A stretch of 64,000 nucleotides of DNA from the NCBI RefSeq assembly GCF_001650025.1, contig NZ_LVVY01000067.1:1-64000 (forward strand). Direction: 5' to 3'. The DNA comes from Devosia elaeis (lineage in GTDB: Bacteria; Pseudomonadota; Alphaproteobacteria; Rhizobiales; Devosiaceae). The position numbers and the translations under genes were made by a program. The notes under the pieces were generated by a model. That model worked only from the letters and a program-made list of their open reading frames with translations, had not been told where the DNA came from and did no database searches. How positions within the stretch are numbered: position 1 is the first letter of the stretch; every line of letters starts with the position of its first letter. This document shows, piece by piece, positions 41,901 to 54,667 of this stretch.

Positions 41901-42056
41901 GATCGTCACCCTCGGGCTTGACCCGAGGGTTCTTTGTCTCGGGTGTATCGCAAACGCCCTCGGGTCGAACCCGAGGGTGACGAGCGGTGGGTGGGGTGGT
42001 GCAGGTATCCACTGATGGCCCCCTCGTTCCCTTCCCCAGGAGGCCGGCGGGGGAGA
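41901..42056. repeat. Composite REP-doublet element, family A, copy 1
   Basis: GATCGTCACC leads into hairpin 1 (41909-41929, CCCTCGGG/CCCGAGGG). A 27-base spacer with TTCTTTGTCTCGGGTGTATC follows, then hairpin 2 (41957-41977) and GTGACGAGC. The G-rich tract GGTGGGTGGGGTGG and TCCACTGATGGCCCCCTCG come next, ending at a C-rich stretch beside the trmJ stop. Copies at about 43905-44076 (reverse) and 49290-49445 share the whole plan. Confidence 0.85.
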
Positions 42057-43904: not shown

Positions 43905-44076
43905 ATCGCGGCTCTTTTGCTTCCCTCCCCCTTAAGAGGAGGGCTTGAGGGAGAGGCCATCCGTGGGTAACTGAACCACCCCCACCCACCGATCGTCACC
44001 CTCGGGCTTGACCCGAGGGCATTTGCGATATGCCCAAAAACAAAGAACCCTCGGGTCAGGCCCGAGGGTGACGATC
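43905..44076. repeat. Composite REP-doublet element, family A, copy 2 (reverse)
   Basis: This is the composite of 41901-42056 and 49290-49445 in the opposite orientation. A GCTCTTTTGCTTCCCTCCCC / TTAAGAGGAGGGCTTGAGGG part and a CCCACCCACCGATCGTCACC boundary come first. Hairpin 1 is at 43999-44019, the spacer GGCATTTGCGATATGCCCAA follows, and hairpin 2 is at 44048-44068. The spacer is the reverse complement of that in copy 1. Confidence 0.85.
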
Positions 44077-49289: not shown

Positions 49290-49445
49290 GATCGTCACCC
49301 TCGGGCCTGACCCGAGGGTTCTTTGTTTTGGGTGCATGGCAAACGCCCTCGGGTCGAGCCCGAGGGTGACGATCGGTGGGTGGGAATGGTTGAGCTGTCC
49401 ACTCGTGGCCCCCCTCAAGCCCCCCTTAAGGGGGAAGCAAAGAGC
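49290..49445. repeat. Composite REP-doublet element, family A, copy 3
   Basis: Same orientation as copy 1. Hairpin 1 is at 49298-49318, then a spacer with TTCTTTGTTTTGGGTGCATG, hairpin 2 at 49346-49366 and GTGACGATC. A G-rich tract, TGTCCACTCGTGGCCCCCCT and the CCCCCTTAAGGGGGAAGCAA part follow. The upstream flank CATCTAACCCAATCCGGATC resembles CATCTAAGCCAAGCTGGATC at copy 1, so the shared block is even longer than the palindromes. Confidence 0.85.
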
Positions 49446-52313: not shown

Positions 52314-53387
52314 CTATTCGTCGCCGCCCGCATCGTCCTCGCCGCCGGCGACCAGCAGGACTTCGCCGAGAAGGCCGGAACTTTCGCGCACGCCCTGTTC
52401 GATCGTGGCGGCGATTTCTGGATTGTCCTTGAGGAATTGGCGGGAATTCTCACGCCCCTGCCCCAGACGCTGGCTGTCCCAGGAGAACCAGGCGCCGGAC
52501 TTTTCCACGATGCCCGACTTGACGCCCAGATCGAGCAATTCGCCGGTCTTGGAAATGCCTTCGCCATACATGATGTCGAATTCGACCTGGCGGAACGGCG
52601 GGGCGAGCTTGTTCTTGACCACCTTCACGCGGGTCTGGTTGCCCACGATCTCCTCGCGGTCCTTGAGCGCGCCGATGCGGCGAATGTCGAGGCGCACCGA
52701 GGCGTAGAACTTCAGCGCATTGCCGCCGGTCGTGGTTTCGGGCGAGCCATACATGACGCCGATCTTCATGCGGATCTGGTTGATGAAGATGACCAGGCAC
52801 TTGGACTTGGAGATCGAGGAGGTCAGCTTGCGCATGGCCTGGCTCATCAGGCGCGCCTGCTGGCCCGGCAGGCTGTCGCCCATTTCGCCCTCGAGTTCGG
52901 CGCGCGGGGTGAGCGCGGCGACCGAATCGACCACCAGCACGTCGATGGCGCCCGAGCGCACCAGCGTATCGGTGATTTCCAGCGCCTGCTCGCCGGCATC
53001 GGGCTGGGAGATCAGCAGGTCATCGACATTGACGCCCAGCTTGCGGGCATAGACGGGATCGAGCGCATGCTCGGCATCCACAAAGGCGCAGATGCCGCCC
53101 TTGCGTTGCGCCTCGGCTATGACATGCAAAGCCAGCGTGGTCTTGCCCGAGCTTTCCGGCCCGAAGATTTCCACGATACGGCCCTTGGGCAGGCCGCCAA
53201 TGCCCAGCGCGATATCGAGGCCGAGCGAACCGGTCGAAATCGCCTCGACCTCGATGGAGGTATTCTCGCCAAGGCGCATGATCGAGCCCTTGCCGAAATT
53301 CCTCTCGATCTGGCTCAGCGCCGCTGCGAGAGCCTTGTCCTTATCCATCGATCCACCCTCAACGACGCGAAGCGGCGAAGCTGCCAT
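52314..53387 (-). CDS. recA: Recombinase RecA
   Basis: Central strand-exchange protein of homologous recombination and the co-protease of the SOS response. The 357-residue protein has the Walker A motif GPESSGKT at 76-83, [15 protein letters not shown], the loop L1/L2 blocks ([20 protein letters not shown], then [22 protein letters not shown]) and an acidic C-terminal tail. The ATG at 53387 follows AAGGAG; a second Met 14 residues in is less well placed. LexA-like sites lie about 80 bases upstream. Confidence 0.98.
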
Positions 53388-53468
53388 AATGCTGTCTCCT
53401 TATTTCACGCTCTCGAAGGCCACGCAACGAGAGGAGCGTTCAGCTATTTGTGCGATATCCGTGCTTTA

Positions 53469-53517
53469 TTTGTTCTCATTTTGTTTCCATGACGTCAAGA
53501 GACAAAATGAGAACAAA
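53469..53517. promoter_or_regulatory. Inverted pair of LexA-like (SOS) boxes upstream of recA
   Basis: TTTGTTCTCATTTTGT (53469-53484) and ACAAAATGAGAACAAA (53502-53517) are perfect inverted copies around 17 bases that contain TGACGTCA. Each arm approximates the alphaproteobacterial LexA consensus GTTC-N7-GTTC with one or two mismatches (GTTC-N7-GTTT and its inverse AGAC-N7-GAAC). On the minus strand a -35-like TTGACG (53498-53493) lies between the arms, so the near arm would overlap the -10 region of a recA promoter. LexA binding is inferred. Confidence 0.65.
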
Positions 53518-53674
53518 GCCACACGGCGCCGGAGACGCGACCGGCCTTGGGATAGGCCGATTCTCGCCGGTTGCGAACCGTGCGCTTAAAAGTATGATTT
53601 TTATCTGGACAGCCCTGCCCGCGATGCGTTTTATGCCTCAACGCCCGAACCGGGCCCCGAGCCGAGGACTGCCC

Positions 53675-54667
53675 ATGCATCTGATCCAGTTTTACGACGA
53701 CAACGGAACCCGCGCCGTCGGGGTGACGCAGCAGGGCGAAACCCGCCGGGTGAACGGGGCCGGCAGCGTCTATGAACTGGCGCAGGCCGCCATGCAGCAG
53801 ATCGGCGGCCTGCCGGCGGCAATCGAAGCCCGCGGCCTGGGCGAGGCCCTGGACAAGAGCGTGCTGGCGCGCGAAGGCCGGCTGCTGACGCCCATCGACC
53901 ATCCCGATCCGGCGCACCTGCATGTCACCGGCACCGGCCTCACCCATCTCGGCTCGGCCGCGACACGCGATTCCATGCACAAGAAGAACGACAAGCCGGT
54001 CGAGGAACTGACCGACAGCATGAAGATGTTCCGCATGGGGCTGGAAAACGGCAAGCCCCAGGCCGGGCAAAAGGGCGTGCAGCCGGAATGGTTCTACAAG
54101 GGCAATGGCCATATCGTGGCCAATCCGGGCCATCCGATCCCCTCGCCCGCCTTTGCGCTCGATGCCGGCGAGGAGCCGGAAATCGCCGGCATCTATGTCA
54201 TCGACCAGCATGGCCAGCCGCGCCGGCTCGGCTTCACCCTGGCCAACGAATTTTCCGACCACGTGACCGAGCGGATCAATTACCTCTACCTGGCCCATTC
54301 CAAGCTGCGCGCCTGCTCCTTCGGCCCGGAACTGCGCGTGGGCGACCTGCCGCGCCATATCGAGGGCATGTCGCGGATCATCCGCGACGGCCAGGTGCTG
54401 TGGGAAAAGCCGTTCCTCTCCGGCGAGGACAATATGAGCCACACCATCGCCAATCTCGAATATCACCATTTCAAGTACGAGCTGTTCTGCCAGCCCGGCG
54501 ACGTGCATGTGCACATGTTCGGCACGGCCACGCTGAGCTTTGCAGACGGAATTTCCACCCGCCCCGACGACATTTTCGAGATCGAGGAAAGCCAGTTCGG
54601 CCTGGCCCTGCGCAACCCGGTCCGCACCGAGGCCGAAAAGCCGGTGATCGTCGGCGGGCTCTATTAG
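53675..54667 (+). CDS. AraD1-family protein (fumarylacetoacetate-hydrolase fold), probable sugar-acid dehydratase
   Basis: A 330-residue protein of the FAH superfamily, of the type annotated AraD1. It starts MHLIQFYDDNGTRAVGVTQQ. The block PEWFYKGNGHIVANPGHPIP (about residues 139-158) and the metal-site EEPEIAGIYVI are diagnostic, and the end shows HVHMFGTATLSFADGI. Relatives act on 2-keto-3-deoxy sugar acids in non-phosphorylative pentose or fucose breakdown; the exact sugar is unknown. The start follows GAGGA. It is next to an aldose-dehydrogenase-like gene. Confidence 0.82.
   Translation: MHLIQFYDDNGTRAVGVTQQGETRRVNGAGSVYELAQAAMQQIGGLPAAIEARGLGEALDKSVLAREGRLLTPIDHPDPAHLHVTGTGLTHLGSAATRDSMHKKNDKPVEELTDSMKMFRMGLENGKPQAGQKGVQPEWFYKGNGHIVANPGHPIPSPAFALDAGEEPEIAGIYVIDQHGQPRRLGFTLANEFSDHVTERINYLYLAHSKLRACSFGPELRVGDLPRHIEGMSRIIRDGQVLWEKPFLSGEDNMSHTIANLEYHHFKYELFCQPGDVHVHMFGTATLSFADGISTRPDDIFEIEESQFGLALRNPVRTEAEKPVIVGGLY

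Follow-up and report, generated by a model that had tools for sequence, protein, structure and literature searches.

The window (the whole 64-kb stretch of DNA analysed here) contains a recA gene on the minus strand (52314–53387), encoding a protein of 357 residues that scores 575.8 bits against TIGR02012 (cut-off 325.3); recA is 90–98% identical within the same genus. Its divergent neighbour is gguC, a member of the AraD1 family on the plus strand (53675–54667; NF040903 GguC, 552 bits, cut-off 340). Approximately 82 to 130 bp upstream of the recA start are two arms of an inverted repeat. The recA-proximal arm, TTTGTTCTCATTTTGT (53469–53484, plus strand), is matched by ACAAAATGAGAACAAA at 53502–53517, its exact reverse complement, which forms the recA-distal arm when read on the minus strand. 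This confirms the original prediction of 16-base exact inverted copies upstream of recA, and the repeat can be extended to 19 nt with 18/19 identity (53469–53487 and 53499–53517), leaving 11 nt between the arms. When aligned with the motif GTTC-N7-GTTC, the proximal arm gives a predicted LexA box with one mismatch (GTTC-TCATTTT-GTTT, 53472–53486) and the distal arm a weaker candidate with two (GTTC-TCATTTT-GTCT, 53500–53514), in line with the one or two mismatches that had been expected.

Perfect 16-nt inverted repeats with a spacer of up to 60 nt occurred at a mean of 0.0 in 40 dinucleotide shuffles of the window; the real window has three other such loci, all of them GC-rich palindromes. Allowing up to three mismatches, we found no third copy of the 16-mer in the 64-kb window (expected 0.06). 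A search of the whole 3.88-Mb genome with the box form GTTCTCATTTTGTYY and up to two mismatches returned two exact matches, which are the two arms, and no other exact or one-mismatch copy. A dispersed repeat was rejected as an explanation, since the core has only two exact genomic copies, both at this locus. The paired arrangement likewise occurs once in the source genome. However, in other genomes of the genus a loose pattern for the pair is about as frequent as its reversed control, so that the uniqueness of the pair carries little weight. Elsewhere in the window, a GC-rich palindromic repeat of about 85 nt, GATCGTCACCCTCGGG...CCCGAGGGTGACGATC, is present in three copies (41903–41983, 43991–44076 and 49290–49374), and a close inverted repeat lies at 96–183, where CCACCTTCTCCCCGAGGGGGAGA is followed, a few tens of bases later, by its complement.

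The -35 element and the overlapping third box

The -35-like TTGACG that had been noticed between the arms is read here as the -35 element of the recA promoter (53498–53493 on the recA strand), with TTGAC being retained in 94/94 genomes of the family. The distal box lies directly upstream of it. A palindrome, TGACGTCA, is indeed also present between the arms (53490–53497), but only its TTGAC is kept across the family genomes, and we rejected the palindrome as a functional element, considering it incidental. No consensus -10 element was found in the recA promoter at 16–18 nt from TTGAC.

The GTTC-N7-GTTC direct repeat is documented for alphaproteobacterial LexA (PMC8565304; PMC12700426); our literature search found no paper on LexA in the source genus. 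The genome encodes one LexA protein (TIGR00498, 178.7 bits, cut-off 110.95), with LexA_DNA_bind and Peptidase_S24 domains. Genome-wide, GTTCN7GTTC gives 98 matches compared with 45 for the reversed control, and two such boxes are found at lexA and two at uvrA-ssb. In order to score the window, a LexA matrix was built from the lexA and uvrA boxes of the genus only, with no recA site included, and run over both strands (127,972 positions). The proximal arm (53472) ranked third and the distal arm (53500) 29th. The first rank went to a box that had been overlooked, GTGC-TTTATTT-GTTC (GTGCTTTATTTGTTC, 53461–53475, plus strand), which has the GTTC half-site at 53472–53475 in common with the proximal arm. 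Three half-sites thus lie 11 bp apart (GTGC 53461, GTTC 53472 and GTTT 53483), making up two overlapping boxes in the recA promoter (53461–53475 and 53472–53486) with one mismatch each to GTTC-N7-GTTC. The box at 53461–53475 corresponds to the alphaproteobacterial recA box GTAC-N7-GTTC in a locally modified form. The original prediction of LexA-like boxes upstream of recA is therefore supported, whereas the idea that the inverted pair constitutes the whole operator is not.

Predicted LexA boxes were also observed at other loci. The lexA promoter (L188, G000:C106:41840–41879) carries two perfect boxes back to back, 25 bp start to start, an arrangement kept in 30/30 genus members examined. Like the recA pair, these are two oppositely oriented boxes in a promoter of the same genus; unlike it, they point outward and both have perfect half-sites. 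Two further canonical boxes may belong to the SOS regulon, one upstream of a DUF1697-radA cluster (L004:1501–1515) and the other between priA and a xerC-like recombinase gene (L021:1501–1515).

Conservation of the arms within the family

We footprinted the recA upstream region in 94 genomes of the family, comprising 57 from the same genus and 37 from 13 other genera. Against variable flanks three elements stand out, namely TTGAC, the proximal arm and the distal arm. TTGAC together with the inner GAAC half-site of the proximal arm, 21–24 nt downstream, is present in all 94, and both proximal half-sites ([AG]AAC-N7-GAAC) follow TTGAC in 82/94, the exceptions being mainly members of genus g6 and single members elsewhere. 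A canonical GTTC-N7-GTTC box makes up the proximal arm in many members of the genus. The distal arm, scored as present when at least 10 of the 13 bases of its core matched, was detected in 51/57 same-genus genomes, 10/10 of genus g16, 2/2 of g7, 1/1 of g11 and 1/7 of g12, while control stretches reached this score in 13 of 1880 cases. By the same 13-base criterion (at least 10/13) it has no match in g2–g6, g10, g13 and g15. Its spacing is mostly fixed; it lies about 10 bp further upstream in L149, L155 and L230 and 1–2 bp closer in a few genomes.

The source-genome sequence folds strongly as a single strand (-27.6 kcal/mol, z -6.85), as would be expected if the repeat were a hairpin or cruciform, acting as an RNA attenuator or as structured DNA, rather than a set of protein sites. 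The comparison of genomes speaks otherwise. Across the 56 genomes of identical geometry we counted 818 paired cells between the arms versus 812 expected (P 0.09) and a single compensatory change, and genera that lack the distal arm still have the proximal one. Moreover, with TTGAC as the -35 element, most of the sequence of the two arms would not form part of the recA transcript. The arms vary without compensatory change and hence behave as protein sites; an RNA hairpin or attenuator was rejected on the lack of covariation despite the strong fold, and we consider any structural role of this kind extremely unlikely.

Which protein reads the arms is a separate question. All 56 genomes of identical geometry retain an unchanged GTTC half-site in each arm. 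The two arms have the spacer TCATTTT in common, whereas the spacers of the lexA and uvrA boxes differ from it and mostly end in TAT; in addition, the second half-site of the distal box is almost never a perfect GTTC (28 GTCC, 13 GTCT, 5 GTAC, 5 GTGC and 3 GTTC). Both features would fit a regulator other than LexA that reads the 13-base core GTTCTCATTTTGT of the two arms, with LexA confined to the overlapping GTGC-N7-GTTC box. Yet this core has no further exact or one-mismatch site in the genome, many genomes have a canonical proximal arm, and in genus g14 (L207) the distal place is occupied by GTTCCGCATTCGTTC, in which a different spacer is flanked by canonical LexA half-sites (GTTC-CGCATTC-GTTC). 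We therefore regard a second regulator as improbable. On the basis of the matrix ranks, the perfect proximal arms of many genus members and the canonical distal box of L207, we favour LexA as the likely ligand of all the boxes, the distal one being the least certain.

The distal box and its target gene

The pair had also been proposed to govern the divergent sugar-acid operon. Such co-regulation, with the distal arm as a LexA operator for gguC and the operon, gains some plausibility from the divergent orientation of the genes in the window and from the adjacency of gguC to recA in most same-genus genomes. However, distal box and gguC adjacency proved to be uncoupled in both directions. The box is kept in the absence of an adjacent gguC in L113, L116, L119, L133 and genus g16 (the last of these has a kinase gene ahead of recA, on the same strand and reading toward it), and it is missing in G003, G017, G018, G022 and G099 although gguC is adjacent. 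A promoter-like site for gguC (53571–53598) is separated from the distal box by about 57 bp and is thus clear of it. The persistence of the distal arm where gguC is absent and its loss where gguC is present indicate that the arm serves recA, making a shared operator for both directions very unlikely.

Taken alone, the distal box has two mismatches in the window copy (GTCT) and one in most relatives (GTCC, GTAC or GTGC). Given that its second half-site is almost never perfect and that its matrix rank is only 29, the affinity of LexA for this predicted site may be low. Activators often sit just upstream of the -35 element, and the distal box, a consistently weak site, has exactly this position. 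A dual switch can thus be imagined for recA, in which low LexA occupancy of the distal box would aid RNA polymerase and the proximal boxes would repress. A dual role of LexA at recA has a cited precedent in the alphaproteobacterium Rhodobacter sphaeroides (Tapias et al. 2002, as cited in PMC8565304 and PMC6813329). On the other hand, the distance from the box to the -35 element varies by 1–2 bp, with a shift of about 10 bp in three genomes, and six of the 57 same-genus genomes manage without a distal box, so we judge a dual switch to be unlikely, though less so than the alternatives above. If true, it would mean that LexA activates basal recA transcription, as a trait specific to these genera.

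Comparison with other Alphaproteobacteria

To place the operator in a wider context, we compared it with recA upstream regions from 80 other alphaproteobacteria (loci L032–L111). The element GAACAAA-N4-GTAC is present upstream of recA in exact form in 70/80 and in near-exact form in 77/80 (0 and 0.4%, respectively, in shuffles), usually with TTG 11 nt upstream of its GAAC. We infer that this represents a -35 element followed by two LexA half-sites, the first located in the spacer; the second, GTAC, may be compromised by its overlap with the -10 element (TACAT, with a 17-nt spacer). In the common recA box, a pair of LexA half-sites seems to be fitted into the -35/-10 spacing. In the source family, the outer half-site of the proximal arm replaces the TTGC -35 element, and TTGAC lies 12 bp further upstream.

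At 67/79 loci (7% in shuffles), the 100 bp on the upstream side of the common recA box contained a further box carrying no more than one mismatch. The statement that recA genes usually carry one box is consequently wrong for this class, and two-box recA operators are common in Alphaproteobacteria. Among these 67 second boxes, 56 are in tandem with the first, commonly at a distance of 18 or 65–68 bp, and 11 face it, six of them 18–20 bp away. Facing two-box recA operators thus occur outside the source family too.

Discussion

The inverted pair is real and conserved, and it is probably functional. The observations presented above make it highly probable that the pair belongs to a compound LexA operator in the recA promoter, and repression of recA through the predicted LexA boxes is likely. 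In the model we propose, LexA would bind the half-site array just downstream of the -35 element (GTGC 53461, GTTC 53472 and GTTT 53483) and so cover the promoter spacer and the -10 region, and would also bind the second, weaker box of opposite orientation directly upstream of the -35 element. With both sites occupied, the -35 element would be sandwiched and RNA polymerase blocked or held. Upon DNA damage, RecA-stimulated self-cleavage of LexA would empty the sites and the promoter would open. The distal box would play an auxiliary part, either strengthening repression or influencing timing, for recA alone, and cooperative repression by the facing pair is possible. The binding of LexA, its repression of recA and the function of the distal box are all deduced here from sequence comparison.

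Similar arrangements have been described in other systems. The operators of alphaproteobacterial LexA, for instance those of Caulobacter SOS promoters (PMC12700426), have the same half-site, 7-nt spacer and location in SOS promoters, in organisms that likewise encode LexA. In contrast to these, the second half-site of each arm in the window departs from GTTC at one or two positions, and the -35 element is enclosed by two mutually facing boxes, with a third overlapping. The Rhizobium loci L063, L064 and L070 differ from the present one in that their second box stands in tandem with the first, about 68 bp upstream of it, instead of facing it across the -35 element. The recA promoter of Rhizobium etli reportedly carries an SOS box at its -35 region, and in this respect resembles the present operator. 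That of Rhodobacter sphaeroides is likewise said to have SOS boxes in its promoter region; the likeness lies in an alphaproteobacterial recA being under LexA control. The Rhizobium etli recA operator is attributed to Tapias and Barbe (1998) in PMC12236228.

The operator elaborates on a type already known and amounts to a modest local variant of the SOS control circuit, and the general picture of the SOS response is unchanged by it. In these genera the distal box is variously present, weak, shifted by about 10 bp or absent, forming a natural series for the study of an auxiliary LexA site. More broadly, the comparisons suggest that LexA control of recA has been rebuilt repeatedly in Alphaproteobacteria, seemingly with one GTTC half-site remaining fixed while the second box shifts in place and direction.
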